Shown here one piece after another: positions 1 through 17,462 of a stretch of 29,405 bases of DNA. The translations under genes were made by a program, and so were the position numbers. Where the stretch lies: the IMG/VR virus record IMGVR_UViG_3300025098_000202, positions 1 through 29,405 of that record, one strand, 5' to 3'. Below the pieces are notes generated by a model that saw only the letters and a program-made list of their open reading frames with translations, did not search any database and was not told the DNA's origin. Source of the DNA: a virus. Position 1 is the first letter of the stretch, and every line of letters begins with the position of its first letter.

Positions 1-1885
1 CTACTGGTGTGTAAGGTTTGGGAACATCAAAACCACCTTTGTATTTTGCTACACCTTTGTAGACACGAACGTCTTGAATGTTAGCATTTAACTCCGCGTT
101 TGGAACAGCATTTTGTGAACCAATTCTTAATGGATCTGTGGTGTTGTTGTAGATACTTCCTGCAGATACATTAATACCTACGGCAATACCATTCACATAA
201 ACAGTAATTACATTACCAGATCTTTCAACACAAATATGACTCCACTGATCAATTGGAACTGTATTATTAGCCGTCGTTATATCTGTTCCAGATGAACCAT
301 CGGTCCACCATTCAAATCTTATAGCTTGATTTCCTCTCTGTTCTAATTGCCATGTCCTTCTAGTACCAGCAGTATTTTCAAAAATACCTATTATGGAGTC
401 ATTACCACCAGTATCTTTTCTATACAACCAGAGTTCAATCGTAAAATCTTCACCACCACTATAATTAAAATCTGAGTTGTTGGGAATTGATAAGAAATCA
501 CCAGTCCCATCAAAGGTCATAGCACTTCCATAATATCCACCAAGTTCATAACCCACACCAGCATTACCAGTTGCTGTAAGTGTCTTATTGGTTCCACTAC
601 CTTTGATATCAGCAGAGTAATCTGTTGGTGCGTTTACTTCTCTTACAGAAATATTATCAAATTCTTTGAAACTACCTGATGATCCTCCAAATACATGGAA
701 ATGTAAAATTTCTGTTGTTGATGTTGCTTTGAAAACTACTGAATACGAACCATTAACATATTGTGCATATGCTAAGACAAAAGTTCCACTATTATATAAA
801 TTAGAATCTGTTACTCCAATATAACCATTATTTGCTCCAGTCAATACATCAAAAGTAAGATTATAATACTTGCCAATTTCAGTAGTTATTGGATAATGTG
901 CCCCACTAGTAGTAGATGCTCCATTTGTAACTCTCATTACTCCATCATTATTGGTGATGGTTGCACTTCTATTAGATGTCCAACCAGTAGTAGTTCCATC
1001 ACTGAAATTACCATTACTAACAGTTTCGGTTCCTCTTAATGTACCAATACCAGGAACAGCAAGAACTAAGTTAGCAGCATAAGGGTCTGTTCTCAACTGA
1101 CTGACAAATGCATCAGAAGTTGTAGGAGCACCATTACGTGGTTGTGGTAAGTCTTCTCCTTTCAGTTTGATAATACTATTAGGAGCACAGTGGAAGTCAG
1201 CACCAGGATTAGAACTATCATTCATAGGCAGATAGAATCCATTGACTCCAAATCCACCACCATTATTGATTACATTCTTGATGACTGATGGTGATTTAGG
1301 AACCCATTGTCCTGGTCTAAAATCAGTTGCTTCTGAAGTGCCAGAAGACTGATAACCATCTCCATCTTTATAAAAACCAAACACATCAGGTGTGAGTGCT
1401 TGACCATCTACAAGGAAAAAATCTGATAATTGTCCATCCCAAGGTTGTGATCCAACATTTACATACCTACCAATGGTCTGAGCAACAACATCATTTATTG
1501 GACCATCGGAATTTCCACTTAATGTATTAGAAACCGTATATTGATATATACTACCATTTATCCAAAATCTAATTCTATTTTGTTGAACTTCTAGAGTAGA
1601 ATTAACTGCTATACAAAAATGTAACCAGTTTCCACTATCTCTACCCACTCCAGTGGAAACTGCCTGATGCCATGTGGAACCATCGTCATTGATTCCCATA
1701 TTAAATTTATTATTAGTATCAAGACCATATTCAGTTCGTGGTGCACCACTTGTACCGTCTCCGGCAGCAAAAAATGTTCTGTAACTTGAAGTATTTGAAT
1801 CGTTAATTTTTGCCCAAACAGATACTGTATGAACCTTACGATTGCCACTACTGGTAGGAATTCTCTTTAAATGTTCGTTTGCCAT
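1..1885 (-). CDS. LamG-domain tail fibre or adhesin (3' end beyond window)
   Basis: An open frame starts at ATG 1885 and runs 628 codons without a stop to the left edge, so only the N-terminal part is seen. The GAGGT Shine-Dalgarno overlaps the stop of the gene before. Residues about 15-170 form a concanavalin-A-like/LamG domain: VSVWAKI strand, NWLHFCIAV, RFWINGS, then WDGQLSDFFLVDGQALTP, which is typical of marine phage lectin domains. Residues about 288-420 resemble a carbohydrate-binding jelly roll (NGNFSDGTTTGW ... FDNISVRE). Residues about 452-628 are a second LamG domain (AMTFDGTGDFLSIP, FTIELWLYRKD, IDQWSHICVERSG, IQDVRVYKGVAKY). The likely role is glycan binding on the host surface as a virion appendage. 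The domain calls are by motif only; the remaining C-terminus is unknown. Confidence 0.88.
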   Translation of the reverse strand, partial: MANEHLKRIPTSSGNRKVHTVSVWAKINDSNTSSYRTFFAAGDGTSGAPRTEYGLDTNNKFNMGINDDGSTWHQAVSTGVGRDSGNWLHFCIAVNSTLEVQQNRIRFWINGSIYQYTVSNTLSGNSDGPINDVVAQTIGRYVNVGSQPWDGQLSDFFLVDGQALTPDVFGFYKDGDGYQSSGTSEATDFRPGQWVPKSPSVIKNVINNGGGFGVNGFYLPMNDSSNPGADFHCAPNSIIKLKGEDLPQPRNGAPTTSDAFVSQLRTDPYAANLVLAVPGIGTLRGTETVSNGNFSDGTTTGWTSNRSATITNNDGVMRVTNGASTTSGAHYPITTEIGKYYNLTFDVLTGANNGYIGVTDSNLYNSGTFVLAYAQYVNGSYSVVFKATSTTEILHFHVFGGSSGSFKEFDNISVREVNAPTDYSADIKGSGTNKTLTATGNAGVGYELGGYYGSAMTFDGTGDFLSIPNNSDFNYSGGEDFTIELWLYRKDTGGNDSIIGIFENTAGTRRTWQLEQRGNQAIRFEWWTDGSSGTDITTANNTVPIDQWSHICVERSGNVITVYVNGIAVGINVSAGSIYNNTTDPLRIGSQNAVPNAELNANIQDVRVYKGVAKYKGGFDVPKPYTPV

Positions 1886-1896
1886 TATATTTTACC

Positions 1897-2571
1897 TCAA
1901 CCTAAAGTAGTAGAACCTGATGGGAAATAATCAGAGATTATCTCCACCCAATTTGTGCCATTGTAGACCTCTAACGCAGTGTTGGTTGAGTTCCACCTAA
2001 TGTATCCACCATATGCTGTTGATGGTCTCTGAGCAGTAGTACCAACAGGTAGAGCAACTGCATCAGTCTTCTCTGATATATCTACTGATACTGTGGGTGA
2101 TGTTGAACCCAATCCAACATTACCACCACTTTCAACTCTTAATCTCTCACCACCAGATGCTGCAGAGACAATAAAATCATTATTATCTGCACCAATTTCC
2201 ATTTGATTGGTGGTATTACCATCCTGAAATCTTATATTTACTCCAGTATCACCAGATTGAAATTTTGCTACTGAATTGATGGTTGGATGATATACTTCTA
2301 ATGGAAGATTTGATGCGGTTCCAATTGCAACACTATTAAAAGTACCAATACCAAGAGGGCTATTGATACCACTAGAGTTGATGGTGGTGACACCAACAAT
2401 AGAAGAACCAATACTAATAGTTTCACTAATATCTAGATTAGTGAATGAATAAGTGTTGGTTGAAATTACAGTTTCTGCGGTGATACTTGTAGCAGAAACC
2501 ACACCAACATTCAAGTCTGTTGGTGGCCCAACTGCGGTAGTAAAACCAGCTAAATTACTTGCCCTTGACAT
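1897..2571 (-). CDS. Short tail fibre-like protein, 224 aa
   Basis: The N-terminus MSRASNLAGF matches that of the fibre at 5996-7330 (MSRARNLAGF), so the two probably share an attachment or trimerisation module. The middle has GIGTFNSVAIGTASNLPLEV, then ERLRVESGGNVGLGSTSP, the common fibre shaft module. The C-terminal part (PVGTTAQRPSTAYGGYIRWN, LEVYNGTNWVEI) is a terminal domain widespread in marine phage fibres. At 224 residues it is much shorter than its neighbours and has no obvious separate tip domain. Its stop lies 11 bases before the LamG gene, whose ribosome site overlaps the stop, so the two are probably co-translated. It could work as an adaptor for the LamG protein; that is inference. 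Confidence 0.85.
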   Translation of the reverse strand: MSRASNLAGFTTAVGPPTDLNVGVVSATSITAETVISTNTYSFTNLDISETISIGSSIVGVTTINSSGINSPLGIGTFNSVAIGTASNLPLEVYHPTINSVAKFQSGDTGVNIRFQDGNTTNQMEIGADNNDFIVSAASGGERLRVESGGNVGLGSTSPTVSVDISEKTDAVALPVGTTAQRPSTAYGGYIRWNSTNTALEVYNGTNWVEIISDYFPSGSTTLG

Positions 2572-2587
2572 ATCGGTGTATTTTTAG

Positions 2588-2617
2588 TTATTTATGAGTT
2601 CTTGGGGAAAGTGCCAT
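2588..2617 (-). pseudogene. Remnant start of a duplicated 95-aa accessory gene (9 codons)
   Basis: The 5' leader, the ATG and the first three codons (ATG GCA CTT) of the accessory gene at 4077-4364 occur here again; the reading frame then diverges and stops after nine codons (MALSPRTHK). The leader copy is nearly perfect (44 of 45 bases) and keeps a late promoter motif and the GGAGG ribosome site. The stop codon merges with the promoter of the next fibre gene. Most simply, a second copy of the accessory gene was deleted or replaced by a fibre cassette. Translation into a nonapeptide is possible but not shown. Confidence 0.55.
2589..2596 (-). promoter_or_regulatory. Late promoter motif CATAAATA before the 224-aa fibre gene
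   Basis: Minus-strand CATAAATAACTAAAAAT, about 18 bases before the ATG at 2571. It belongs to the repeated RATAAATAACTAAAAAGTA cassette and overlaps the stop of the remnant frame. Confidence 0.65.
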
Positions 2618-2653
2618 TAGGAAAATCCTCCGAACTAAACAGGTTTAGGCGTA
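2609..2653. repeat. 45-bp leader repeat, copy 1
   Basis: Matches 4356-4400 at 44 of 45 positions (one C/T change). It spans the start of the accessory reading frame, the GGAGG ribosome site and a dyad (CTAAAC-CT-GTTTAG). The dyad is perfect in this copy and loses one pair in the other. Confidence 0.9.
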
Positions 2654-2753
2654 TTATTTATTCGTTAGTTTGTCAAGTGGTTGTTATGCGGTACGATATA
2701 CACCAGAGACAGATTTAATGGATTTAGTTTTAATCCGGTTACGGACTATTTAA
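2618..2753 (-). other. Non-coding interval between fibre genes
   Basis: With the nine-codon remnant it makes a 182-base gap, the longest in the fibre array. It holds the leader repeat, a late promoter motif (2655-2662) and about 90 bases after the stop at 2754 in which I see only a weak hairpin (GGATT-AAAACTA-AATCC) and no strong terminator. Confidence 0.6.
2655..2662 (-). promoter_or_regulatory. T4-type late promoter motif AATAAATA (remnant leader)
   Basis: Minus-strand AATAAATA, one mismatch from the T4 late consensus TATAAATA. It lies upstream of the truncated accessory gene, at about the same place as in the intact copy (4403-4410). Confidence 0.6.
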
Positions 2754-4046
2754 CTAGCTAGTATAATAAATTCCGTTTCCATAAAATGTAAGCCCAGAAG
2801 AATAAACAGTATTAGTTACATCGGCATGACCGCTATTAGTCATATATAAAAGCCTCATATAATTACTACCATTTTCAATATACGGCATGATACTTCCTGC
2901 CCCTGAAGGCAAAGACATGGAAGCATTACCTTGACAATTTCCATGACTATATGTAGGTACTTGATCAGCTGCATACGGCAAACCCGAAACATTAATGTTT
3001 CCGGTTCCTCCCGATAAACCGGAGATATTTAGTTGATACGAAATAAATACAGTATTACCAATTCTGGTGTATTTACCTTGATTGGTTTGACTGGCTAATG
3101 TCCCACCAAATGTAACTGATGGAGTCCAAGTACCTTCTTCATAATCATCTAGAAGTTCAGATGTAGATGTTCCTGAACCATCAGCAGTGGCAGAGAAGTC
3201 AATACCTTTACCAGAAGTTCCTATAACCAAATTTCCAGTTTTAACTTGAACATCACCAGCAGAAGTTATACGAAGTCTTTCACTAAGACTGGGACCAGAG
3301 GCGCTGGTGTAGAACTTAATCTGTCCGTCATCTTTATTAGTGGTATCACTCCCTCCAGCGAATTGGAATCCAGCAACTTTATTTGTATCCCAAAAACCAA
3401 ATATTTCACTCAAAGTGGTATTAGCACTTGACCCAGAACCTCTTATTGCGATTCTTCCTCCACTTGTTTCACCATTTACTATAATTGATCCAGCAATGGT
3501 ATCTAAAGCAGTTGAATAATTTCCTGTAATTAATCTGCCACCAGAATCTACACGAAGTCTTTCTGTTAATGCATTTGCACCAGATACTCCATTAGTTTTG
3601 AAAATAAGATGTGAAGGTGACCCTTGACCAGTAAATGCTGCTTGTGCTATTGACTCAATAGATCCAGTAACTTGATCTCCATCGTTACTACCATCATTAG
3701 CTTTAAATTCAATTACACCAATTGTTTGATCAGCAGTTATAGAACTATCACTATTATTAATTCTTATAGTTGGTGAAGAACTACTACTTACTACAAGGTT
3801 TTTTTCTGGATTAGTCAGTCCGATGCCAACCAGACCAGCAGAAGTTATACGAAGTCTTTCTGTATTATTAGTACCTAATGCTAACGTATTAGTTGCTGGA
3901 CTACTAACAGAAGTACCAGTACCAACATTTAATGCACCAGATACAGTACTCACACCTGCTAGAATGGTACCCCCACCAATAGTCGTCTGAATTGACGGAG
4001 TAGAAGCATCTAAATGCTCAATATTATTAGTCTTGAGGGTACTCAT
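2754..4046 (-). CDS. Tail fibre protein, 430 aa
   Basis: The N-terminus MSTLKTNNIEHLDASTPSIQ is a fibre start I recognise from marine phages; close variants open the neighbouring fibres. Then come beta-repeat shaft modules (GVSTVSGALNVGTGTSVSS, and several ERLRITSAG or ERLRVDSGG units with GIGLTNP). The C-terminal ~130 residues start at DDYEEGTWTPSVTFGG and continue with GKYTRIGNTVFISYQLNI and GLPYAA, a tip domain found on many phage fibres. The rest of the tip (GNCQGNASMSLPSGAG ... GNGIYYTS) is probably the receptor-contacting end. It sits just downstream of the 95-aa accessory gene and has its own late promoter. No S74 domain is present, so it should mature without self-cleavage. Confidence 0.9.
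   Translation of the reverse strand: MSTLKTNNIEHLDASTPSIQTTIGGGTILAGVSTVSGALNVGTGTSVSSPATNTLALGTNNTERLRITSAGLVGIGLTNPEKNLVVSSSSSPTIRINNSDSSITADQTIGVIEFKANDGSNDGDQVTGSIESIAQAAFTGQGSPSHLIFKTNGVSGANALTERLRVDSGGRLITGNYSTALDTIAGSIIVNGETSGGRIAIRGSGSSANTTLSEIFGFWDTNKVAGFQFAGGSDTTNKDDGQIKFYTSASGPSLSERLRITSAGDVQVKTGNLVIGTSGKGIDFSATADGSGTSTSELLDDYEEGTWTPSVTFGGTLASQTNQGKYTRIGNTVFISYQLNISGLSGGTGNINVSGLPYAADQVPTYSHGNCQGNASMSLPSGAGSIMPYIENGSNYMRLLYMTNSGHADVTNTVYSSGLTFYGNGIYYTS
3255..3281. repeat. 27-bp ERLRITSAG repeat, copy A
   Basis: Exact 27-base sequence also found at 3834-3860 and 5426-5452; variants occur near 5576, 6490 and 8556. It encodes ERLRITSAG or part of it. Conservation at the DNA level between two fibre genes suggests recent duplication or recombination. 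Confidence 0.85.
3834..3860. repeat. 27-bp ERLRITSAG repeat, copy B
   Basis: Identical to 3255-3281 and 5426-5452; same gene as copy A, about 580 bases away. Confidence 0.85.
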
Positions 4047-4064
4047 GTCTATCTACTTTTTAGG

Positions 4065-4072
4065 TATTTATT
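4065..4072 (-). promoter_or_regulatory. Late promoter motif AATAAATA before the 430-aa fibre gene
   Basis: Minus-strand AATAAATACCTAAAAAGTA cassette, four bases after the stop of the accessory gene and 18 bases before the ATG at 4046. Confidence 0.7.
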
Positions 4073-4076
4073 GAAC

Positions 4077-4364
4077 TTATTCGGCTGGTTTGTTTGCAAT
4101 CAAGAATGCCTTGTATGCATCTTTCACTGTTTGTGTCCATGCAGCATTACAAATTGCTTGAACATCAGCATCTTCACCACTGATATCTGTGTCAACAAAG
4201 TTATCACTTTCATCAAGTGAACCACATGACAGTGCATGACGATGGAAAGAACGTGCAACTTCTACACCATCCTTCTCAATAATTTCTGCTCTACGTACTT
4301 GTACTGCTTTATATGTACCAACGACTTCAATCTTGTCGTTTTCAAATCTTTCAGTAAGTGCCAT
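4077..4364 (-). CDS. Conserved small accessory protein, 95 aa
   Basis: A compact soluble protein beginning MALTERFENDKIEVVG, with a basic/acidic beta-like N-half (KAVQVRRAEIIEKDGVEVARSFHRHAL) and a helical C-half (ADVQAICNAAWTQTVKDAYKAF). I recognise the sequence type from cyanophage fibre regions but know no function. It has none of the Gly/Ser/Thr-rich repeats of the fibres. It lies between two fibre genes, and its leader is duplicated at 2609-2653, so it may travel with fibre cassettes. A fibre-assembly helper or virion decoration is possible but unproven. The ATG is fixed by GGAGG nine bases upstream; the leader can also fold AGGA-TTT-TCCT over part of that site. Confidence 0.85.
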   Translation of the reverse strand: MALTERFENDKIEVVGTYKAVQVRRAEIIEKDGVEVARSFHRHALSCGSLDESDNFVDTDISGEDADVQAICNAAWTQTVKDAYKAFLIANKPAE

Positions 4365-4400
4365 TAGGAAAATCCTCCGAATTAAACAGGTTTAGGCGTA
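4356..4400. repeat. 45-bp leader repeat, copy 2
   Basis: 44 of 45 bases match 2609-2653. Here it is the functional leader and start of the 95-aa gene. Confidence 0.9.
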
Positions 4401-4402
4401 AG

Positions 4403-4410
4403 TATTTATT
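4403..4410 (-). promoter_or_regulatory. Late promoter motif AATAAATA before the 95-aa gene
   Basis: Minus-strand TGATAATAAATACTT; the TGA is the stop of the upstream S74 fibre gene. The leader to the ATG is about 38 bases, longer than at most fibre genes, and carries a TAAAC-CT-GTTTA dyad. Confidence 0.65.
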
Positions 4411-4411
4411 A

Positions 4412-5971
4412 TCAACCTTCAAGTGCAGTAACTCTCGTCAATAGGTCAGCGTTTTGTGTTTCAAGGGTTTCGATCTTTGAAAGCGCATCCTTCAATGCCT
4501 CAACCAAAACGGGAATAATCCCCGTCTTCTCTACAGATTTAGACCACTCAGATTGTGTATCATCTCTATATGCATCACTATAATCATCAATAATTTCGCC
4601 TTGCCCATAACCTTGTGTAGTTGCTGCAGTCGAAACTCGATTAATGCCCATATTTTGATGAACAAGATTTGGTATTACAGTTTCTACCTCTTGAGCAATA
4701 AATCCATACTTTGTATCAGTCCCCATTTTTGCTTCTTCTTTCCAGGTAAAAGTCCTTCCCTGAAGTCCCTTAATAATAGTTACTGCATCACTTGCACCAA
4801 TATCTTGTATATTTTCTTTTAATCTACCATCAGAAATATCAGCACTAGAACTACCAGTGAAGTTTCCATTAGAAGCATCAATGGTCAAGCGAACAGTATC
4901 ATTGCCAGCGGTAAAGTATAAATTGCCGGTACTGCTGTTGTGAATAATTCTTTGACCAATTCTCATCCCATTGGCTTGCCAATTCATAAACTGTGAAGTA
5001 GCATTATGACTTCTTATAACAAGACTAGCATTAGATCCCGAGTTAGTAACTGCTTGAGTATTTTCAATTTTTAGATGACCATTGGCATCATTTTGAGAGA
5101 ATGCAGCTTTAATATGAAGTTGTGTATCAGGACTTGTCTCATTTATACCAACAAAACCAGCAGATGTAATCCTCATCCGTTCCGTAGCGTCTGAACCATT
5201 TGATCGAGTCGCAAAACGCATATACGAAGATGTATTGTCGGCAGTCCCATTTTCTTTCGCAACCTGAATGGTTCCACCCATTTCATAACCACTGCCATCG
5301 TGATTGTAGAAAGTTATTCCTGATCCTCTATTAACACTACTAGATGCACTTGCAGTATAAAGTTCAAGTGAATCATTATCACTTGCTTGCAAAGATCCAC
5401 CACGAGTACCAGTAACTTGAATTTTACCAGCAGAAGTTATACGAAGTCTTTCATTACTACCAGTATTGAATTCTAATTCTTGTTGACCAGAACCAATAGA
5501 TCTAATAAAAGGATTACTACCAGATGATGCTGTCCATTCTAATCTAGCGTTTGCTGTTGTTAAACGAGCATATCCATCAGAAGTTATACGAAGTTTTTCT
5601 GAATAAGATGTTCCAGAAGCAACACTAAAGATAATTGGTTCATCATCATATGAATACAATATTGTTCCAAAACTATTTTGTGCCTGAAGTGCTGCCTTTT
5701 TCGTTCCAGCATTGAACAATGAGATTGTGCATTCATTAGTCGCATGATTAACTTGGAGCTCCGTTGTTGGATTATCAGTTCCGATCCCTACGTTACCACT
5801 ACTATCTTCAACCATTGAAGAATAAGTTACAATCCCAGCGGTTCCACTGTTCTTATAGAACTGATTAGCAGCACCATTGGTACCTGGCAATGTGATAGTA
5901 TTATCACCTGCGACTGCTGGTGCATTGATATCAACCGCACCAGATGTAGTTCCTCTTAAACTCAGACCCAT
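4412..5971 (-). CDS. Tail fibre with C-terminal S74 intramolecular chaperone, 519 aa
   Basis: The N-terminus MGLSLRGTTSGAVDINAPAV leads into shaft modules with repeated ERLRITSAG and GIGTDNPTTELQV / GINETSPDTQLHI units. Residues 380-519 are a peptidase S74 (endosialidase chaperone) domain: SDGRLKENI at 380-388, then FTWKEEAKMG, YGFIAQEVETVIP, and a C-terminal heptad helix (VEALKDALSKIETLETQNADLL) that would form a trimeric coiled coil. In this family the chaperone trimer folds the fibre and then cleaves itself off just before the conserved Ser, here Ser380, giving a mature fibre of about 379 residues. The Ser, Asp and Lys of the motif are present, so cleavage should be active. It is the only S74 domain visible in the window. 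Confidence 0.92.
   Translation of the reverse strand: MGLSLRGTTSGAVDINAPAVAGDNTITLPGTNGAANQFYKNSGTAGIVTYSSMVEDSSGNVGIGTDNPTTELQVNHATNECTISLFNAGTKKAALQAQNSFGTILYSYDDEPIIFSVASGTSYSEKLRITSDGYARLTTANARLEWTASSGSNPFIRSIGSGQQELEFNTGSNERLRITSAGKIQVTGTRGGSLQASDNDSLELYTASASSSVNRGSGITFYNHDGSGYEMGGTIQVAKENGTADNTSSYMRFATRSNGSDATERMRITSAGFVGINETSPDTQLHIKAAFSQNDANGHLKIENTQAVTNSGSNASLVIRSHNATSQFMNWQANGMRIGQRIIHNSSTGNLYFTAGNDTVRLTIDASNGNFTGSSSADISDGRLKENIQDIGASDAVTIIKGLQGRTFTWKEEAKMGTDTKYGFIAQEVETVIPNLVHQNMGINRVSTAATTQGYGQGEIIDDYSDAYRDDTQSEWSKSVEKTGIIPVLVEALKDALSKIETLETQNADLLTRVTALEG
5426..5452. repeat. 27-bp ERLRITSAG repeat, copy C
   Basis: Identical to copies A and B but in a different fibre gene (4412-5971), so it could serve as a crossover site between genes. 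Confidence 0.85.
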
Positions 5972-5989
5972 GGTTTTATACTTTTTAGT

Positions 5990-5997
5990 TATTTATC
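5990..5997 (-). promoter_or_regulatory. Late promoter motif GATAAATA before the S74 fibre gene
   Basis: TGATAAATAACTAAAAAGT on the minus strand; the TGA stop of the upstream fibre gene (5996-5998) is built into the motif. Confidence 0.7.
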
Positions 5998-7330
5998 AGG
6001 CAGTAGATGAAGCCGTTAATCTATGTTGTGAATCAATTCTAGCATTCTGTAAAATAATTTCATAAGAGAATTTAACTCCATCATCACCAGTTGGATTTGT
6101 AATATCAATACTATATCCAAAACTACCAGCATTATTGAATGCATAACTACCGGTACTGTAAGTATATGCAAATGGTGTAGTCACTGTTGAATTATCAGAT
6201 GAATTACCAGAACTATCGGTAAAGACTCTAGATACAAACTGTGCTGCAACATGATTACTTGCAGTATTAGATGCTGCCCAAGATCCAACAGCATTAATTG
6301 TAATCATACAACATTTTCTATTAGTTCCAGTAAATGTAAATCTTGTCAATTGACCAGAATTTAAGCTGTCAATTACATAGTATTTTTGGATAAGACCACC
6401 ACCAACATTCTCATAGTTATAAACAACATTATTACTAGCAGTTGTATCACCTAATTGTAACGTACTGCCAGTACTTACTTGAACCTGACCACCAGTGATG
6501 CGAAGTCTTTCCTCTCCAGCTGTTTCAAAAAGTAATATATTACCAATTTTTCCATAAATATTTGCCTGACTGGTTCCTGCAGAATTAAGGAATCTTAGTC
6601 CACCAATAGTATCACCAGAACCTTGTCGTTCTGTTTGAATGTCAATTCCACAAAACCCAGATTCTCTAAGAGACAATTTATTAGCAGGATTATCAGTACC
6701 AATACCTAAACCAGTGCTTGTAACTCTTAATTTTTCAGACCCACTATTAGTAACTGCAATCTCACCAGCAGAAGGGAAGAATATTCCAGTCGTTGTATCA
6801 ACACCAACTATACCTGGAGTTGCTTCAGTTCCATAACCAACTGATACTGCTGTACCAACAGGTACTGCGAGACCATAAGGAACATATGCAGCACCAGTTC
6901 CTTTCTTATTTGTATAATTGTCTGCTCTGACTTTACTATTACCACCCGAAAGAACACCGGGCATATCAACAAATGTACCAATACCTAAAATATCAGGAAT
7001 AAACTCATCACCATCACCAATAATCAAATCAGCGTCACCTTGCATTACAATATCAGTGTATTGTGTATATGCAGCTGATGCAGATTCTGGTGGGTCTACA
7101 GTAATCGTAGATGCAATCGAAAGATTTGCATTCGTATAATATATCTTATTCAATGGACTGGTAAGGTCCGTAGCCAATAGGGAAGTGCCAAGACCACCCG
7201 GAGTTCCAGTTAACTCGGAACCGTCACCAAAGTATGAACTAGCAGTCAAAAACCCTACTCGGATATTGACTGCATTTTCTGCACTGGTAATAGCTGAACC
7301 AAAACCGGCTAGATTACGAGCTCTTGACAT
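5996..7330 (-). CDS. Tail fibre protein, 444 aa
   Basis: MSRARNLAGFGSAITSAENA at the start is shared with the 224-aa fibre. It is followed by a YFGDGSELTG module (also in the long fibres at 11674 and 13597), a segment of YGTEATPGIVGVDTTTGIFF, then GIGTDNPANKLSL and ERLRITGGQVQV shaft units. The C-terminal ~150 residues (YYVIDSLNSGQLTRF ... YSIDITNPTGDDGVKFSYEI) show no motif I recognise and are likely the receptor-binding tip. Its stop codon overlaps the promoter of the S74 fibre. The ATG lies 18 bases after a late promoter motif. Confidence 0.88.
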   Translation of the reverse strand: MSRARNLAGFGSAITSAENAVNIRVGFLTASSYFGDGSELTGTPGGLGTSLLATDLTSPLNKIYYTNANLSIASTITVDPPESASAAYTQYTDIVMQGDADLIIGDGDEFIPDILGIGTFVDMPGVLSGGNSKVRADNYTNKKGTGAAYVPYGLAVPVGTAVSVGYGTEATPGIVGVDTTTGIFFPSAGEIAVTNSGSEKLRVTSTGLGIGTDNPANKLSLRESGFCGIDIQTERQGSGDTIGGLRFLNSAGTSQANIYGKIGNILLFETAGEERLRITGGQVQVSTGSTLQLGDTTASNNVVYNYENVGGGLIQKYYVIDSLNSGQLTRFTFTGTNRKCCMITINAVGSWAASNTASNHVAAQFVSRVFTDSSGNSSDNSTVTTPFAYTYSTGSYAFNNAGSFGYSIDITNPTGDDGVKFSYEIILQNARIDSQHRLTASSTA

Positions 7331-7336
7331 TTTATC

Positions 7337-7391
7337 TACTTTTTAGTTATTTATTCAGAGTCAGCAGGTAGTGGTTCGTTACCTTCTGCTA
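7337..7391. repeat. 55-bp promoter/gene-end repeat, copy 1
   Basis: Identical over 55 bases to 8810-8864. It contains the end of a small gene (codons for AEGNEPLPADSE and stop), the late promoter and the leader of the following fibre gene. Confidence 0.95.
7348..7355 (-). promoter_or_regulatory. Late promoter motif AATAAATA before the 444-aa fibre gene
   Basis: GAATAAATAACTAAAAAGTA on the minus strand; the TAA stop of the 56-aa gene (7351-7353) is part of the motif. Confidence 0.7.
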
Positions 7392-7521
7392 GCCAGGCAA
7401 GATATTCTTGATAGTCGGTGTTCTTTGGAGAACAAGGAATCCAAGAACCATCTGTAGTTCTTAAGACAACAGCTGGATTGATGGCTTGTGAGCGTTGATC
7501 GTAAACAAGTTGATAATTCAT
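7351..7521 (-). CDS. Small fibre-associated protein, 56 aa (paralogue 1)
   Basis: Reads MNYQLVYDQRSQAINPAVVL, then SWIPCSPKNTDYQEYLAWLA and the tail EGNEPLPADSE. The ATG overlaps the TGA of the upstream fibre (ATGA), which argues for translational coupling and against a longer start. The (S/W)xxP...N.DYQEYL.WxAEGN.P.PAD pattern is common in small proteins or domains next to tail fibre genes in many phages. An assembly or capping role is plausible but unproven. The C-terminus is identical to paralogue 2 (8824-9000), while the N-terminal half differs. Confidence 0.85.
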   Translation of the reverse strand: MNYQLVYDQRSQAINPAVVLRTTDGSWIPCSPKNTDYQEYLAWLAEGNEPLPADSE

Positions 7522-8804: not shown

Positions 8805-8809
8805 CTCAA

Positions 8810-8864: not shown

Positions 8865-9000
8865 CCCACTCAAGATATTCTTGATAGTCGGTGTTGTCTG
8901 GGTCAAACGGGATACACCATGATGGCTGACCATCAACGTTTTTCATGACGCTGATGATGTCGCCATCAAGTTGCCGTAGAAGTCTATAAGTGGTTGTCAT
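8824..9000 (-). CDS. Small fibre-associated protein, 58 aa (paralogue 2)
   Basis: Reads MTTTYRLLRQLDGDIISVMK, then PSWCIPFDPDNTDYQEYLEW and ends VAEGNEPLPADSE. The ATG at 9000 lies two bases after the stop of the upstream fibre. A longer frame starting further up would lie inside the fibre gene in another frame and is not credible. It is a paralogue of the 56-aa gene: same length class, same DYQEYL.W.AEGN core, same place after a jelly-roll fibre. The different N-terminal halves might match the different fibre tips they accompany. Confidence 0.85.
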   Translation of the reverse strand: MTTTYRLLRQLDGDIISVMKNVDGQPSWCIPFDPDNTDYQEYLEWVAEGNEPLPADSE

Positions 9001-9002
9001 AA

Positions 9003-10367: not shown

Positions 10368-10386
10368 TGTTAATATCTTTTAATTG

Positions 10387-10394
10387 TATTTATC
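10387..10394 (-). promoter_or_regulatory. Late promoter motif GATAAATA before the 454-aa fibre gene
   Basis: CTGATAAATACAATTAAAAG on the minus strand; overlaps the TGA stop (10393-10395). The downstream leader departs from the ACTAAAAAGTA form of its neighbours. Confidence 0.65.
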
Positions 10395-11121
10395 AGAGGT
10401 CACCCAACTGATATAAGTCAGTTACAAGGGTTTTGCCAAGACCCACAGTGACAGCTACACCAGTTTGAACGATAATTCTTGGCTCTTGAACGACGACATA
10501 GGAGTGGTCATTACCCGCATTTGTCGTATCAAGTACGATGTTTTCAGTTACATATGTAGTGGCATTGATATAACTGAATGGACTTTTAGTATTATCTGAA
10601 TACTTAATAGCAGTACCAACACCAGACGCACCACTTTCAATACTGACATCAACAGTTGTACCATTGACAGTAACAGTATTACCAACACCAATAAAGTTTA
10701 TGGTTGTGATACCAGTACCAATCTGATTACCACCAGACTGAATACCAACTGCAGAGATAAATCTAGTAGATATACCAGAAACCAGTTCAGTATCACCCTC
10801 TACTATTAAATTACCTCCAACAGTGAAATTGCCAGGTGCATCTGTTGGGATGACTGCGTTAAATGCTTTATAAGATATTGCTTCTACTACATCTCCACCT
10901 TGAACTGGAGTTGTAAATGTGATATTTGTTCCGTCTGTTCCATTATAATCTTGGCTTGAAATCAGTTTCGCACCGTTTAGATATACTTCAAGATATCCAA
11001 TTTGATATTTTGTCGCAAAAACAAATGAAGTTTGAACACCCGTAGGGTTGAATACCTGACGAGCAACAATTACTGATGAATCTCCTGGGTTACGACCTAG
11101 ATACCCGTTATTACCTAACAT
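10393..11121 (-). CDS. Tail fibre-like virion protein, 242 aa
   Basis: After MLGNNGYLGRNPGDSSVIVA comes a ~70-residue domain with FNPTGVQTSFVF, YQIGYLEVYLNGAKLISSQD and GGDVVEAISYKAF. This is the recurrent phage fibre domain with the pattern GYxxVxLNGxxL..D....GxxI.F....GDxVE. The middle has PGNFTVGGNLIVEGDTELVS and GISTRFISAVGIQSGG beta units, and the C-terminus is a beta-rich YVVVQEPRIIVQTGVAVTVG segment ending in TDLYQLGDL. Start and upstream stop overlap by one base (TGATG), so it is translationally coupled to the 175-aa gene. Probably an appendage component; the exact position in the virion is unknown. Confidence 0.88.
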   Translation of the reverse strand: MLGNNGYLGRNPGDSSVIVARQVFNPTGVQTSFVFATKYQIGYLEVYLNGAKLISSQDYNGTDGTNITFTTPVQGGDVVEAISYKAFNAVIPTDAPGNFTVGGNLIVEGDTELVSGISTRFISAVGIQSGGNQIGTGITTINFIGVGNTVTVNGTTVDVSIESGASGVGTAIKYSDNTKSPFSYINATTYVTENIVLDTTNAGNDHSYVVVQEPRIIVQTGVAVTVGLGKTLVTDLYQLGDL

Positions 11122-11648
11122 CAGGCAACTCCTTCTAAAATACTAAGACTTACATCTAATGCGTTTGCAGTATCACAATAGACCCTAATTTCTTCATTAG
11201 GTCTTAAAATTGTCTTACCGGCATCACTAATAACAAAAGAACTTCCAGTTGGAACCGGAATGTCATTTGCAATATTCGCAAAAGTGTTTCCAATACCAAT
11301 CTCAACAAATAGATTTACAGAGTTACCTGTAAGATTTGCAAAAGTACCACCGACAAGAATTGATTTCCCCGATGCAGTATATGCAGTTGTAAGACCCATA
11401 AAGGTTATATTCTGATTAGCTGCGATTGAATTATTTGTGGAGGCCTTATCCACAAGAACTGAACCAGCACCAATAGAATATACTTTCGTCGCACCTCTAA
11501 AGAACGTGGTATCAACCATATCACCAACGGATATGCCATTAGTAGATATACCACTAATAGTAGTTCCAGCAGCACCAATACTAGCAACTGTCGTTGTTGT
11601 CACAATCCCAGCTGATGATGTCAGTTTATTGTTAAATGACTCCGCCAT
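11121..11648 (-). CDS. Virion-associated protein, 175 aa
   Basis: MAESFNNKLTSSAGIVTTTT begins the protein; the rest is Gly/Thr/Ser/Val-rich with a jelly-roll-like C-terminus (GKSILVGGTFANLTGNSVNL, VPTGSSFVISDAGKTILRPN, then NALDVSLSILEGVA). The end resembles the 114-aa protein at 13251-13595 (LVLETGDSLVISSSSNTDVK, FISSILETL), so the two are probably distant paralogues of a small phage structural family. It is the first gene of a two-gene unit with its own late promoter. Function beyond a virion role is not visible. Confidence 0.82.
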   Translation of the reverse strand: MAESFNNKLTSSAGIVTTTTVASIGAAGTTISGISTNGISVGDMVDTTFFRGATKVYSIGAGSVLVDKASTNNSIAANQNITFMGLTTAYTASGKSILVGGTFANLTGNSVNLFVEIGIGNTFANIANDIPVPTGSSFVISDAGKTILRPNEEIRVYCDTANALDVSLSILEGVA

Positions 11649-11667
11649 TGTATTAATACTTTTTAGT

Positions 11668-11675
11668 TATTTATT
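11668..11675 (-). promoter_or_regulatory. Late promoter motif AATAAATA before the 175-aa gene
   Basis: TAATAAATAACTAAAAAGTA on the minus strand, overlapping the tandem TAA stops of the 523-aa fibre gene. Confidence 0.7.
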
Positions 11676-13245
11676 AAAGTCCACCAAGAGCAATTACCAT
11701 TGCTAATGAAGGGATAGTGTTATTGTTGACTGTTAGGTTACCTTCAATGTTGGTATCACCCCTAACATCCAAAGTATGGAGTGGATTTGTGGTACCAATT
11801 CCAACCATAATGGTGGAACCAGATGACACAACCGTAAATTGTGATGTAGCAGAACCAACGTTTAATTCGGTAACAACATCAAGGTTTTGTGCTGTTAATA
11901 TACCAGCAAAGACTCCACTACCGTCAGGAAGAACAGTAACACCAATACCAGATGGTCCAGTGGTATAACCAACATTCAACCCAGTCCTGGCAGTTACAAA
12001 ACCAACAGCGTCTATACTAGCTACATCCTCATAGGTTAAAGTACCACCAATGGTGACATTTCCAGAAAAAATAGCATTACTACCATTGAAAGTGCCACCA
12101 ACGGACACATCATCACCGAATGTTGCAGTCCCACCAACAATATTAGTCGCATATACAGTACCAACACCCAGAGATTCAGCACCAGTAATGATACCAAGTG
12201 TTGAAATACCACTAACAACTAATGTTTCTGCCGAGACATTTGCAGTATTGGCAAGACCAATAATTGTTACTTGGCCTGTTGAGCTACTAACTGAAATATT
12301 AGCTCCAGCAACAATAGAAGTGACAATACCGGTTAGTTCAGTACCACTACCATAATATGTCGTAATACCTGCAGATGTTCCAACTGTTGCACCTACACCA
12401 GACGACGTAATCTTAAAGTCTGCGAATGAAGATACTCCAGCATTTACATTCAGTTGAGTAACTGAAGCAATACCACCAATAACATTCGTTGCAATACCTG
12501 CAAGTGTTACAAATGACTGTTGTGCGACAGTGATTGTGGCGATACCACCATTATTACCACCAGTTGCAGTTACATCAAGTCCTCTAAAATCAAGACCTGA
12601 ATATGTTATTCCTCCACCAACTACTGCACCTTCGTCAAATAGGAGAAGACCTTCAATAGCACCTGAAGGTGCAGCTGCTAACCATTGTGGAGGTTGACCT
12701 GTACCTCTAGAGAAAAGGCCTTGACCAGTAGTTCCATTTTCAAATGCAGATGTTATACCCGGTTGGGCTTGATATAATAGCTGACCTGTCGCTCCACCGT
12801 AGATATTAGTTGCATTCGTTGCACTAGTAATACCCGTCAGTCCAGTACCAGCACCAGTAAATGTGGTTGCAGTAAGAGCACCAGATACAAAAGTATCAAC
12901 TAAATTAGAAGGTCCATTGACAGTAAATGCCGTGCCGACTGTCGCAACACCAGTTATATTAAGATTTCTACCAGTAACCTCATCATATACGAGGTCACCA
13001 ACAACATTTAAGTCTCCACCAACATATAAATCACCGACAAAAGTACCAATACCAGTAAATGTAGAGAGACCAGTTACGGATAAACTATCCGATACATTCA
13101 CTGAACCGGCTACATCCAATGCTGATTTTGCACTAGAACTGTTGATACCAACGCGACCAATAACTTCTAACGAAGTTTTGTTGTCACTAAAAGAACTTAT
13201 ACCAATTTTAAAGTTTTTTTGGTCGTTACTAGCGTACTTTGCCAT
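11674..13245 (-). CDS. Tail fibre protein, 523 aa
   Basis: MAKYASNDQKNFKIGISSFS is followed by SLEVIGRVGINSSSAKSALDV, then long runs of beta units of the GLSTFTG / GDLYVGGDLNVVGDL / GRNLNITGVATV type. Segments such as YGGATGQLLYQAQPGITSAF, LFDEGAVVGGGITYSGL and YYGSGTELTGIVTSI are shared in style with the 1273-aa fibre. The C-terminus has GIGTTNPLHTLDVRG and ends MVIALGGL, comparable to ILALGGDS in the 1273-aa protein. No tip domain is evident, so it may be a shaft or a proximal fibre part. It sits six bases after the 114-aa gene without its own promoter motif, so it is probably co-transcribed from 17446. Confidence 0.88.
   Translation of the reverse strand: MAKYASNDQKNFKIGISSFSDNKTSLEVIGRVGINSSSAKSALDVAGSVNVSDSLSVTGLSTFTGIGTFVGDLYVGGDLNVVGDLVYDEVTGRNLNITGVATVGTAFTVNGPSNLVDTFVSGALTATTFTGAGTGLTGITSATNATNIYGGATGQLLYQAQPGITSAFENGTTGQGLFSRGTGQPPQWLAAAPSGAIEGLLLFDEGAVVGGGITYSGLDFRGLDVTATGGNNGGIATITVAQQSFVTLAGIATNVIGGIASVTQLNVNAGVSSFADFKITSSGVGATVGTSAGITTYYGSGTELTGIVTSIVAGANISVSSSTGQVTIIGLANTANVSAETLVVSGISTLGIITGAESLGVGTVYATNIVGGTATFGDDVSVGGTFNGSNAIFSGNVTIGGTLTYEDVASIDAVGFVTARTGLNVGYTTGPSGIGVTVLPDGSGVFAGILTAQNLDVVTELNVGSATSQFTVVSSGSTIMVGIGTTNPLHTLDVRGDTNIEGNLTVNNNTIPSLAMVIALGGL
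12965..13010. repeat. 46-bp fibre repeat, copy 1
   Basis: Matches 15827-15872 at 45 of 46 bases; encodes the LVYDEVTGRNL part of the shaft in two different fibres. Confidence 0.88.
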
Positions 13246-13250
13246 CGTTA

Positions 13251-13595
13251 TTACTGATTAAGTGTCTCTAAGATAGATGAGATGAATTTCACGTCAGTAT
13301 TGCTACTTGATGATATGACAAGAGAATCTCCAGTTTCAAGAACAAGTTTACCTGCCAAAAGATTTGCAGCATCGTTTGCTGGTACTGGGAAACCTTTTAG
13401 AATTTCGGTAGTTACTGCAATACCTGCGGTTGTTCTCTCGTGAGAGAAACTGATAGTTTGTGTGTCACTACCAACGTTGGTGGTTTGTGCTAAAAGGACA
13501 ATAGCACTATATCCAGTAGGTGCTGTATAGATACCTACCGTATTGAGTCCGACAACACCTGTGATTGTCTGATAATTGTTAAGGGCTAATGCCAT
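13251..13595 (-). CDS. Virion-associated protein, 114 aa
   Basis: MALALNNYQTITGVVGLNTV, then GIYTAPTGYSAIVLLAQTTN and ISFSHERTTAGIAVTTEILK, ending LVLETGDSLVISSSSNTDVK plus FISSILETLNQ. Small all-beta proteins with a V.L.A...N.GS.TQ.IS.SH...T and LVLE.GDSL pattern recur near phage fibre and neck genes. It is probably a structural appendage protein and a distant paralogue of the 175-aa protein. It starts one base after the stop of the 1273-aa fibre gene, with GGAGGAG just upstream inside that gene's end, so translation is coupled. Confidence 0.85.
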   Translation of the reverse strand: MALALNNYQTITGVVGLNTVGIYTAPTGYSAIVLLAQTTNVGSDTQTISFSHERTTAGIAVTTEILKGFPVPANDAANLLAGKLVLETGDSLVISSSSNTDVKFISSILETLNQ

Positions 13596-13596
13596 T

Positions 13597-16500
13597 TTAT
13601 GAATCTCCTCCTAATGCGAGAATATAAGGTGTGATATTGGCAAATAGGCTTCTGTTGTAAGCATCACCAGTAATAGATCCTTCAAGTTGATTAATAATAA
13701 CTCCTTCACCAATCTTGAAGTTGCCTGCTTGATCGGTAGAAGTAAAGATTACCAAACCACCATTCTTATTTACAATTTCATTCTCTGGGATTGCAATACC
13801 ACCTCTTTGTGGGAGAGCGGTAAGAGCAGTATTACCAGAACCGATATATTCAAATGCTTGAGATGAAGCAAGTACTCTACTTTGTTTGAAGAATGGAACG
13901 GTAGTTCCTACACCAACCGCATAAGGTACATTTTCTGTGAATGTGACTGTAGTGATACCACCAACAACTGGAGTTGCACTACTGACCACATAGTATGTAG
14001 GTAAGACATCAGGAGTACCTGTAGCAGACCCAGTAAAGGATACCGTAGGTGTTCCTGTATAACCTCTACCATTAGAAATCATGTCCACAGATGTCACAGA
14101 ACCACCAGTCAGTCGTGCAACACCAGTTGCCTTGATACCCCATGATTCTGAAGGATCAGAGAAAGTAACTACCGGAGGTGATGTGTAACCAGAACCACCA
14201 CTTGTAATATTAACACCTTTTATAGTGTTATAAATTTCGTCAAGGTATACAACCTGACCATCATAAGGCAATGATGTAAATGTTTCTACTTGACCACCAG
14301 AAGAATATGTATGTGCTAAGGTTGATACTCCAACATAGGCTCTAAACTGATTTGTTGCTGGAACAGAATCGACAGTAAAGATACTACCAAATGCACCACT
14401 TGGGAATGGTGCAAATGTACTGATACTTACATTACCACCAGTTTGATAGTTATGAACAATTGTCGAAGGACCTACATTAACCTCAAACTCTCTTGCTGAG
14501 TTAATACCGACAACATCAAATACATGATTTGCAACACCGTTGTTGTCGCCAAGTGCAGGCGGGAAGTATGCAGTAGAAATACCCCCACCAGAATTACAAC
14601 TGAATACTAACTGCGAGAATGTGACACTTGCACCAACATAGAAGTTATTTGCAATACTGGTTGATACCGTCATCACACCAGTCACATTACTATAATTTGC
14701 AGTAGAGATACCGAATGATGTGACAGCAAGTTGTGAGTCACATGTAAATGTCATATCTCTCATTGAGACTGACATACCAACATTATAACCATGATTGGTT
14801 GCTGTTGTAATTGTAGTCAGACCAGTTACATTATCGTATGTTGCATTTGTGATGTTAATGCTGTCGGTACTAATATCAATTGGGAATGCATTCGACCCAG
14901 CAGATGTAAATTCAGTAACAGTTCCAATAAAGTTTGTTGGACCAATACCATCAGCAACAAGACCCAACCTACCAAAGGAAGAGTTGGAGTTTGTCAGGTC
15001 ACATTGACCACCGTTGATACAAACAATACTTTGGTCGTTGTAGATAGTAAAGATTGAAACTAACTGGGCATAACCTTCATTAGAGACTGAAACACCAATA
15101 CCACCCTGATTGAGTTGAGTATATGAGTCAACGTTCATTGCTCTGGTGTCACCAATGACATGTCTACCGTCAATCTTCATACCAATACTATTAGAGATGA
15201 AGTTTGTACAGTTCCTAATGTAAGGGCCCTGTGTTACATAAGATGGTTTGTTGGGATTGAATGCGATAATTGCCTTACCTTCATTCAATGAACCCGTAAA
15301 TGACATATTCTCAACATAACTACCATTTGCAACATAAATGAGATCTTCGTCAGGGTTTTGTGGAATAATTGAGACTTCTCTCAAACTGTCACCAAGAAGT
15401 GTGACCTGTTCTGGAATAATGATTGGATTGTTTTCTGAATAATTACCAGCAGAAATTCTAATAACCGATGATGCTTCTGCAATCGTAAGAGCAGAACCAA
15501 CAGTTCTCTTTGCAGTAGAAATTAGGTAACCATCATTTTCATCATTACCATCAGGTGTAACATAGATTTGGTTAGTAACAGATACCAGACCAACAACACC
15601 AGTCAGGTTTGAACCATCACCATAGAAGGCTGTAGCACTTACAATACCCGTTGTGGGGTACATTGTAACAGCTGCACCTACTGATGTAATACCAGAGATA
15701 TAAACATCACTCAGGAAGGTTGAGAACCCAGTGAGAGTAGAAATACCAGTTACTAATAGGTCTTTTGTAGTGGTAAGACCGGTGATACCAAGGTTTGCAA
15801 TTGTTGCAACACCAGTAATATTCAGGTTTCTACCAGTAACCTCATCATATACAAGGTCACCAACAACATTTAGATTGCCAGCAACATAAAGGTCACCACC
15901 AGTCGTCGTAATACCACCATCAGATGCAAGTGTTGTGATGCCAGAGACAACTAATGAACCAGTCAGTGAAGAAACACCAGTTACGATCAGTTCTCTTGTA
16001 GTTGTAACTCCAGTAACACCTAGTGTTGCAATCGTAGAGACGCCAGTGACTTCTAAGAACTGGGTAGTTGTGAGTCCAGTAACACCAAGTGTTGCAGCTG
16101 TAGCTACACCAGTAACATCAAGATATTGTGCAGTCGCAACACCAGTAACACCAAGTGTCGATATAGTAGAAAGACCAAGTGTTGAATTTCTCGTGACTGT
16201 GAAGTCTCGTGGAATAGTAACATCAGTATTAAGACCTACAGTAATTGTAAGACCTGTACCTATGGTATAGATTTCACTAGTTCTACCCAGAATATCAAAC
16301 CTTTCACCATCAAGGTCAATACTACTGGTACCAATATTACCACCATATTCTAGTGATACATTACCTGCGGCATTGTCAACATATGCCTTAATTGATTGTT
16401 GAGTTGCAAGTGCCTCGTTACTATTTGAGCCAAAGGTATCTTCATCTAGAATGGTAGTAACACCAACTGTTGCACCAGCTCCTGTACCTACCTTCAGAGT

Positions 16501-17418
16501 TGCAATGGTAGAAACACCAGTGACAACCACATTAGCTGCAGTTGTAACCCCAGTAACACGAAGGTCTTTATCTATAACTACATTGCCACCACTCAGTGTG
16601 GTGATACCAGTAACACTTAATGAAGTAACAGAAGCAATACCACCAATTGCACTCGTAGAGATACCAGATAGTCTTGCATATCTGACATCTAAATTTGCTT
16701 TAGGGTCAATCCAAGTTGGTGCAGCTGTACCTTGGCCTAGAAGAAGATTACCTGTGGGACCAATCGGTAAGAATCCAGTTGCATTTTGTCCTGTTTGATA
16801 AGGAATCCTACCAGAAGAACCACCTTTTAGGTTAGTAGAAATACCTGCACTGTCTGCATAGGAGACATTAATTGCTGCAAGTGATGTCCAAACAGGAGTT
16901 CCTGTTCCTTGTGATTGAAGAATTTCTCCAGCTGTACCTGATGCAGTGAATGCTGTATCATTTGGACCAGCCTGATACAAGATAGCACCAGCCGCACCAC
17001 CTTTTACATCAGTTGCAAGACCAGAATTAGTTGAATACCCAGAAACTACAACTCCATTTGCCGAGATTGTAAGTTTTCCTTTACCGGATATTGGTGAAAT
17101 CTGGATACCAGGACCAGGTTGAATTTCAGTTACAATACCTGTTAGATTGACACCATCACCAAAATACGTTGCACCGGTGATAATACCGGCAGTGGTGATA
17201 CCAGTAAGAGATGAATTGAATAATGATGCACTATTGGTTGCATTGATGAACTTGGCGGTTAGTGCTCCACCAACCAGAACATTGTTCGTTACCCCAATAC
17301 CCAGTGCGGTAAGTATTCCAGTAACAGTAAAATTTCCACTTACAGTAGAAGGACCTACGATAATAGGACCACTGTTATTGAACCTATTGGCTATCTTGTC
17401 GGCCCTAAGTAAAGACAT
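13597..17418 (-). CDS. Long tail fibre with beta-helix domain, 1273 aa
   Basis: MSLLRADKIANRFNNSGPII opens a shaft of beta units. Residues 422-482 contain six exact 11-residue repeats (L.VTGV.T...), with further 11-spaced VTG/ITG pairs at 288/299 and 534/545/556; such repeats suit a trimeric beta-fibre. ALATQQSIKAYVD (337-349) is a common fibre motif. Residues about 617-840 (IYVTPDGNDENDGYLISTAK, IIIPEQVTLLGDSLREVSII, then LTNSNSSFGRLG) form a pectate-lyase-like right-handed beta helix. Then come GGSGYTSPPVVTFSD repeats, and from residue 1189 a FEYIGSG...FKIGEG domain shared with the 1629-aa protein. No catalytic residues could be assigned, so enzymatic activity is unproven. Confidence 0.9.
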   Translation of the reverse strand: MSLLRADKIANRFNNSGPIIVGPSTVSGNFTVTGILTALGIGVTNNVLVGGALTAKFINATNSASLFNSSLTGITTAGIITGATYFGDGVNLTGIVTEIQPGPGIQISPISGKGKLTISANGVVVSGYSTNSGLATDVKGGAAGAILYQAGPNDTAFTASGTAGEILQSQGTGTPVWTSLAAINVSYADSAGISTNLKGGSSGRIPYQTGQNATGFLPIGPTGNLLLGQGTAAPTWIDPKANLDVRYARLSGISTSAIGGIASVTSLSVTGITTLSGGNVVIDKDLRVTGVTTAANVVVTGVSTIATLKVGTGAGATVGVTTILDEDTFGSNSNEALATQQSIKAYVDNAAGNVSLEYGGNIGTSSIDLDGERFDILGRTSEIYTIGTGLTITVGLNTDVTIPRDFTVTRNSTLGLSTISTLGVTGVATAQYLDVTGVATAATLGVTGLTTTQFLEVTGVSTIATLGVTGVTTTRELIVTGVSSLTGSLVVSGITTLASDGGITTTGGDLYVAGNLNVVGDLVYDEVTGRNLNITGVATIANLGITGLTTTKDLLVTGISTLTGFSTFLSDVYISGITSVGAAVTMYPTTGIVSATAFYGDGSNLTGVVGLVSVTNQIYVTPDGNDENDGYLISTAKRTVGSALTIAEASSVIRISAGNYSENNPIIIPEQVTLLGDSLREVSIIPQNPDEDLIYVANGSYVENMSFTGSLNEGKAIIAFNPNKPSYVTQGPYIRNCTNFISNSIGMKIDGRHVIGDTRAMNVDSYTQLNQGGIGVSVSNEGYAQLVSIFTIYNDQSIVCINGGQCDLTNSNSSFGRLGLVADGIGPTNFIGTVTEFTSAGSNAFPIDISTDSINITNATYDNVTGLTTITTATNHGYNVGMSVSMRDMTFTCDSQLAVTSFGISTANYSNVTGVMTVSTSIANNFYVGASVTFSQLVFSCNSGGGISTAYFPPALGDNNGVANHVFDVVGINSAREFEVNVGPSTIVHNYQTGGNVSISTFAPFPSGAFGSIFTVDSVPATNQFRAYVGVSTLAHTYSSGGQVETFTSLPYDGQVVYLDEIYNTIKGVNITSGGSGYTSPPVVTFSDPSESWGIKATGVARLTGGSVTSVDMISNGRGYTGTPTVSFTGSATGTPDVLPTYYVVSSATPVVGGITTVTFTENVPYAVGVGTTVPFFKQSRVLASSQAFEYIGSGNTALTALPQRGGIAIPENEIVNKNGGLVIFTSTDQAGNFKIGEGVIINQLEGSITGDAYNRSLFANITPYILALGGDS
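15827..15872. repeat. 46-bp fibre repeat, copy 2
   Basis: Matches 12965-13010 at 45 of 46 bases; lies within the 1273-aa fibre gene. Confidence 0.88.
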
Positions 17419-17453: not shown

Positions 17454-17462
17454 ACCAGTATA

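Follow-up and report, generated by a model that had tools for sequence, protein, structure and literature searches.

How one phage comes to encode many similar host-recognition fibres, and whether it uses them by turns or together, is the question raised by a virus DNA of 29,405 bases (IMG/VR record IMGVR_UViG_3300025098_000202; this whole stretch is called the window below). A sequence-only reading had described positions 1-17418 as a row of nine long fibre genes built from exchangeable cassettes. The nine open reading frames (ORFs) were confirmed, all on the minus strand (2-1885, 1897-2571, 2754-4046, 4412-5971, 5996-7330, 7518-8804, 9003-10367, 11674-13245 and 13597-17418). The window phage is a T4-like cyanomyovirus and kin to the Synechococcus phages RN05-S, RB11-B, S-B05 and S-B43, its closest named relatives by DNA. 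All four have Synechococcus MW02 as recorded host, and the host of the window phage is therefore probably Synechococcus as well. The overlapping contig G002 belongs to the same phage (a single mismatch across window 95-20094) and extends 13.4 kb beyond window position 1. The comparisons below give good support to an array that is real and evolves by exchange of tip cassettes, ordinary in kind for cyanomyophages and unusual in the clarity of its units. Judged by alignment, the conserved unit is the predicted late promoter with the N-terminus, and what is exchanged is the tip, in many cases along with a small partner gene.

The exchange predicted earlier, together with the proposal to look for it in close relatives, was borne out by RN05-S and RB11-B. 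These phages are 99.2% identical across a shared 16,991 bp, but carry new middles or tips in seven of the 20 array genes compared (among the small genes, only those of 114 aa and 95 aa were included), the other 13 genes being at least 94% identical. Slots are mostly designated here by their N-terminal prefix. In the altered genes (MSKIQ, MSRAR, LamG, MPISI, MTVRI, MSRVR and MSRIRAN, the last shortened in one of the two phages by the stretch used) the N-terminal 41-305 residues are kept before the sequences diverge; identity returns at the C-terminus in MSKIQ, MSRAR and LamG. A similar picture emerged from contig G011, which has the same slot order as the window over its extent. An island of 200 bp with 95% identity covers the MSKIQ promoter through codon 58 and is flanked on both sides by unlike tips (28% and 29% overall identity). 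The two fibres nearest the baseplate, 13597-17418 and 11674-13245, keep both ends in G011 and RN05-S, and full tip replacement starts at 9003-10367.

Close relatives with different tips retain the N-termini of the slots and, for the most part, their order: the same N-termini recur across the slot maps, which cover 12 stretches out of nine records. In RN05-S and RB11-B the block MSRAS, LamG, MAIGN, MPISI stands before the block MSRAR, MGLSL, MALSE, MSILK, the reverse of the window order, and S-B43 has the same junction (LamG ... MPISI to MSRAR) as far as seen. Two side observations concern the layout in relatives. In G013 (L089) the third-slot gene encodes 2586 aa, the slots after it are absent, and genes unlike fibres follow in the array's place. 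In the S-B05 and S-B43 genomes (L006, L007, L274 and L275) matches to the orthologue of the 1273-aa fibre lie in two distant pieces, and array parts occur at several places and orientations, which is either a real rearrangement or an assembly error.

The edges of homology were compared pairwise among 18 array sequences. Homology that starts close upstream of a gene most often starts at the late promoter, and often stops within the gene. Among 123 alignments spanning a start codon, which are not independent events, homology starts at most 150 nt upstream in 76; of these starts, 59 fall no more than 6 nt from ATAAATA and the remaining 17 lie further upstream. The homology stops inside the gene in 90 of the 123.

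ATAAATA before the slots is a predicted late promoter. The late promoter of S-PM2 is published as NATAAATA (PMC2984593), and a motif of this T4 type stands 23-34 nt upstream of seven of the nine window fibre genes (e.g. at 5990-5996, minus strand). The claim that most genes begin with the same promoter cassette needs to be narrowed: ATAAATA is absent before 2-1885 and 11674-13245, and the fuller leader precedes only five of the nine genes (1897, 2754, 4412, 5996 and 7518). Further TAAATA cores are found at 2589, 4065, 4403, 7348, 8821, 10387, 11668 and 17446. The 15-mer leader ATAAATAACTAAAAA occurs in five of seven records, with nine copies in RN05-S, seven in RB11-B, six in S-B05 and three in S-B43; each of the 32 matches falls within a fibre array, ahead of a fibre or accessory gene. 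In a scan of IMG/VR, 111 of the 126 matches listed for an 18-mer of the promoter lie before the start of an ORF. A fibre-specific shuffling element at the boundaries was considered and dropped, since the 18-mer precedes many other late genes; for the same reason it is termed a late promoter only. Also among the matches listed, the exact 18-mer often precedes a gene family of the type MDxQELRxLQEAYxEVY in viral contigs (L276-L395). No terminator-like hairpins were found on the coding strand at the junctions within 1-17900.

Tips or tip segments also occur on different anchors. The MSKIQ slot of RB11-B shares 199 bp at 91.5% identity with MSAIN of S-B43 and 129 bp at 93% with an MSRxRAD slot; for MSKIQ of RN05-S, the stretches shared with these two slots are only 73-95 bp long (81-88%) and 62-74 bp long (81-82%), respectively. 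One tip (72% identity over 171 aa) is accompanied by a 106-aa partner (89% identity over 104 aa); the two occupy slot MPVRL in RN05-S, and in L133 and L134/L374 (the latter two being one sequence) they are found in slot MSTLK. Within the window, the tips of 7518-8804 and 9003-10367 share DNA patches of 84-95% identity, among them 7873-7955 (minus strand) and 9337-9419 (95%, repeat D13); the patches common to MSAIN and MSKIQ are 83 bp (95%) and 81 bp (88%) long. The patch at 7873-7955 may represent a shared tip framework of neighbouring slots and a site of recombination. Each fibre had been credited with a different C-terminus. The LamG, S74, DDYEEGTW and jelly-roll tips were all seen, but the tips of 7518-8804 and 9003-10367 belong to one family.

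This tip family is followed by partner genes, which leave 3' remnants when lost. The partner proteins mostly comprise 50-62 aa, are longer in some phages, and combine a variable N-terminus with the ending ..DYQEYLEWVAEGNTPxPAD. Linkage was assessed on the ORFs of 200 aa or more in the collected loci, 929 different ones in all: the partner motif was located behind 20 of the 36 ORFs ending in [AS]E[LI] and behind none of the 893 others. By eye, the remaining 16 consisted of seven with a partner missed by the pattern, three with a diverged small gene, one with a longer partner (L219) and five with a remnant, in which the last partner codons are fused to the next promoter. In sum, every one of the 36 has next to it either a partner, recognised by the motif in 20 cases and by eye in 11, or what is left of its 3' end (five). 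A stricter partner pattern scored a partner behind nine of the 18 tips that end in an EL-like way and behind one of 49 others, and missed the true partners in L007, L087 and L133. In a tblastn search the partner matched 31 named records. Of these, four relatives already counted, two duplicates and another 14 phages of Pseudomonas putida, whose match was almost identical, were set aside; in all 11 others the fibre upstream of the partner homologue ended in AEL, SEL or AEI. A supposedly broken 'pseudo' partner before the fibre 5996-7330 turned out to be an intact 56-aa frame missed by a 60-aa limit.

The partner adjoins its fibre gene and co-varies with the tip, as do fibre-tip chaperones of the Tfa, gp38 and Pam3 gp25 type, and by this likeness of arrangement to Pam3 gp25 it is probably a tip-specific assembly chaperone. 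The accessible part of the Pam3 study (PMC9608196) describes the fibre gp24 with a dedicated chaperone, gp25, whose N-terminal domain is variable and of beta type and whose C-terminal domain is conserved and helical; the partner here was modelled as three strands and one helix (mean pLDDT 90.8). By that source gp25 has about 162 residues, in contrast to the 50-62 here (more in some other phages), and no fold match was found. In the annotations, the homologue in S-2L is labelled tail fiber assembly-like and the other annotated homologues hypothetical, a similar assembly label sits on the fibre itself in Vanda, and a different partner, the 106-aa protein of RN05-S, is annotated as a tail assembly chaperone. 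The model matched no fold in the PDB (best E 0.58), a profile search of the partner against the PDB gave no match, and PF16778 was reached in the Vanda homologue only at E 0.027, below the cut-off. A Tfa or gp25 fold was considered for the partner and was not confirmed by these profile and fold searches.

The array is bounded on its outer side by a conserved 873-aa baseplate/short-fibre-like gene (17821-20442; phrog_677, E 2.1e-15), and this gene and a 1629-aa gene, both with baseplate and fibre PHROG matches, adjoin it. The features given with window coordinates in this paragraph and the next lie on the minus strand. The baseplate-proximal slot MSLLR encodes a 1273-aa fibre (13597-17418; phrog_17885 tail fibre, E 1.9e-155). 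It is followed by a 114-aa gene (13251-13595) with 94-100% identity in the pairs compared, and by slot MAKYA, a 523-aa beta-repeat protein with matches to baseplate wedge/fibre PHROGs (11674-13245). Slot MAESF (11121-11648; phrog_26609, E 1.3e-60), an accessory gene of 175 aa, has a late promoter and the leader and overlaps by one base with the 242-aa fibre-like gene of slot MLGNN (10393-11121; phrog_18345, weak at E 0.0087). The next two slots carry the CBM-like tips: MSAIN, a 454-aa fibre ending in LNSEL (9003-10367; phrog_4492 tail fibre, E 6.8e-45), the tip of which is replaced in relatives, and MSKIQ, a 428-aa fibre ending in AESEL (7518-8804; phrog_4492, E 8.8e-52). The MSAIN partner (8824-9000), a candidate fibre-tip chaperone, has 58 aa and the MSKIQ partner (7351-7521) 56 aa, and the ATG of the latter overlaps the stop of the MSKIQ fibre. 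The jelly roll in the MSKIQ tip reached CBM_4_9 at E 7e-4, below the Pfam cut-off, and CBM families in Foldseek at E of about 1e-6. Since the tip structure model was middling (mean pLDDT 67.4), only its CBM-like part was used; no PDB match to the tip was obtained with profile searches.

Slot MSRAR (5996-7330) encodes a 444-aa fibre with a middle segment that varies among relatives, and slot MGLSL (4412-5971) a 519-aa fibre with a C-terminal S74 intramolecular chaperone domain (Peptidase_S74, PF13884, E 2.5e-16). A 95-aa accessory gene with its own late-promoter motif follows (4077-4364; phrog_6228); a relative of it is encoded in 214 of 242 pattern-matched stretches of viral_contigs. Behind slot MSTLK, a 430-aa fibre with the DDYEEGTW motif (2754-4046), lies at 2600-2653 a copied leader with the first codons of the 95-aa accessory gene, reading MALSPR and followed soon after by the next promoter. 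It is 91% identical over 54 nt to 4347-4400 (repeat D18), lies between two fibre slots and is likely the scar of a rearrangement. Within the window the row ends with slot MSRAS, a 224-aa anchor/stem gene (1897-2571), and the LamG fibre 11 nt behind it, which has no ATAAATA of its own. The frame 2-1885 (Laminin_G_3, PF13385, E 7.5e-32) continues beyond the window edge and holds the first 628 of 1197 aa, the full length being taken from G002. In that contig the array extends about 8.3 kb past window position 1 (end near L088:8419), with genes of 154, 183, 374, 670, 186, 196, 309 and 86 aa in turn beyond the LamG gene; the 374-aa gene matched C1q (E 3.4e-12) and the 670-aa gene LamG (E 1.2e-13). 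The shared N-termini reported earlier are real: MSRASNLAGF and MSRARNLAGF begin two genes, and an MSxIxxNxI-like start is found in 7518, 9003, 2754 and 13597.

Outside the row, a 106-aa cysteine-containing gene on the plus strand (17494-17814) faces the 873-aa gene. It has no Pfam match above the cut-off and no PHROG match. In 14 distant loci, lying between L044 and L084, DNA that resembles it at 70-78% comes after a gene similar to the 873-aa one, apparently running in that gene's direction. Three adjacent genes at 26450-28268 match the same PHROGs, 17490 and 28536, and are apparently tandem paralogues. Searches for tRNA genes and Rfam families gave no match, and an NCBIfam search nothing useful.

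We consider it probable that the locus is a host-recognition fibre array of slots with fixed N-termini, exchangeable tips and, for some tips, partners, and without a programmed switch. In this explanation, each slot of the row, mostly under its own late promoter, would combine a fixed N-terminus, probably the attachment end, with an exchangeable distal tip. Tips would be exchanged during co-infection by homologous recombination in the shared promoter and N-terminus and in shared stem or tip patches. The fibres would all be produced at the same late stage of infection and used for adsorption, with partners that fold the tips and with one fibre carrying its chaperone (S74) internally. Because seven of the nine window fibres have a late-promoter motif and their tips belong to unlike families, the suggested multi-receptor kit is plausible.

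Several observations weigh against this explanation. The conservation of the promoter may stem from selection alone and so produce part of the edge pattern, and the 18-mer promoter is ordinary elsewhere, many of its downstream ORFs among the matches listed not being fibre-like by N-terminus. As slot genes were chosen by N-terminal prefix, their conserved N-termini are partly built in, a point that is answered by the syntenic order alone. Joint movement of tip and partner is not strict: between RN05-S and RB11-B the MPVRL fibre is 95% identical and its partner only 67%. By eye, partners were also recognised behind other tip endings (L132, SVEL; L249, SAEF; L004, QADL), so that the [AS]E[LI] rule is not exact, and with no fold match in the PDB the reading of the partner as a chaperone rests mainly on its position.

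Among the alternatives, the one that survives best, though we regard it as rather unlikely, is that several of the genes encode subunits of one branched or hetero-oligomeric fibre complex (MSRAS with LamG, MAESF with MLGNN), which divide labour and are not alternative receptors. In these two pairs the genes overlap or are separated by 11-12 nt, and no promoter motif precedes the second. Such a complex would cover some of the genes only: MSRAR, MGLSL and MSTLK each have a promoter motif and a tip and look self-contained, as does MSKIQ when taken with its partner. A more specific proposal, which we hold to be doubtful, is that slots with the MSxIxxNxI anchor, all apparently expressed late, compete for the same baseplate sites, so that each particle of a clonal stock would bear a random mixture of tips. 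If true, this would constitute a combinatorial bet-hedging adsorption apparatus, restocked by tip-plus-chaperone cassettes moving between slots and phages.

It is improbable that only the conserved fibres work and that the rest are decaying or parked cassettes, a reservoir or junk from gene duplication. Scars and partner remnants do exist (window 2600-2653), and RN05-S has a 47-aa MSRAS stub, but all nine window genes (the end of LamG being taken from G002) and the further genes of G002 are open frames, and phages with differing tips still have the promoter motifs, the N-termini and most of the gene order in common.

Least probable is programmed switching, i.e. the expression of one slot at a time through inversion, promotion of a cassette to an expression site or retroelement mutagenesis: although a repeated boundary sequence with paralogous tips is what a cassette switch would need and block order differs among phages, a late-promoter motif stands before most of the slots individually, and a single site of expression is therefore not apparent. 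No pair of inverted repeats of at least 25 nt was found within the window (seed 12), and the array genes of the window and G002 have one common orientation. No match to the serine resolvase (PF00239), tyrosine integrase (PF00589) or reverse transcriptase (PF00078) family was found in any of the seven records searched (four complete relatives and three contigs, with only 53 kb of the window phage itself); the controls were positive in 10 of 14, 14 of 14 and three of 14 genomes, respectively. The window, G002 and G006, possibly from one population, agree in array sequence where they overlap. Nothing was found that would suggest a programmed switch in one virus, and the switchable kit proposed earlier is not supported.

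Hypervariable fibre islands and the swapping of tips are already known. In its available part, PMC7029224 reports a hypervariable host recognition cluster (HRC) in pelagimyophages and cyanomyophages, placed between VrlC and gp14 and with a mean of 34.2 kb in cyanomyophages. The present locus is likewise a tail-fibre gene cluster in a T4-like marine phage, hypervariable among relatives with conserved flanks; what that part of the study describes is the island, without slot-by-slot tip exchange, partner genes or scars. The arrays of RN05-S, RB11-B, S-B05 and S-B43 share many slots and N-termini and the 15-mer leader with the window, and differ in their tips and, in RN05-S, RB11-B and S-B43 (as far as seen), in the reversed block order. 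The under-recruiting marine metaviromic islands of PMC3909814 resemble the locus in that carbohydrate-binding, fibre, C1q and lectin genes are among their commonest, with conserved N-termini and variable C-termini of the tail fibres; in the portion available, the domain examples are pelagiphages and no multi-slot array is described. Tail fibres are also counted among the flexible genes in PMC3037559.

The PeSL cassettes of T4-type phages (Arbiol 2010, Comeau 2014) reportedly combine an early promoter with a stem-loop. They would be similar in being intergenic regulatory elements at the edges of shuffled genes; by this definition the junctions here, at which a late promoter and no stem-loop was found, would not be PeSLs. 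A limited literature search did not find the combination of slot, tip and partner, the partner remnants or the deletion scars in print; since it covered few subscription papers, this is weak evidence of novelty. A search on RN05-S and RB11-B found no papers.

Sequence does little to explain which hosts cyanophages infect in the ocean. If fibres could be read as a fixed anchor, a tip that can be swapped and a partner specific to that tip, fibre tips could be identified and counted in metagenomes and produced together with the partner they need. RN05-S and RB11-B, with the same recorded host, a near-identical 17 kb and seven different array genes, make it testable which tips matter.

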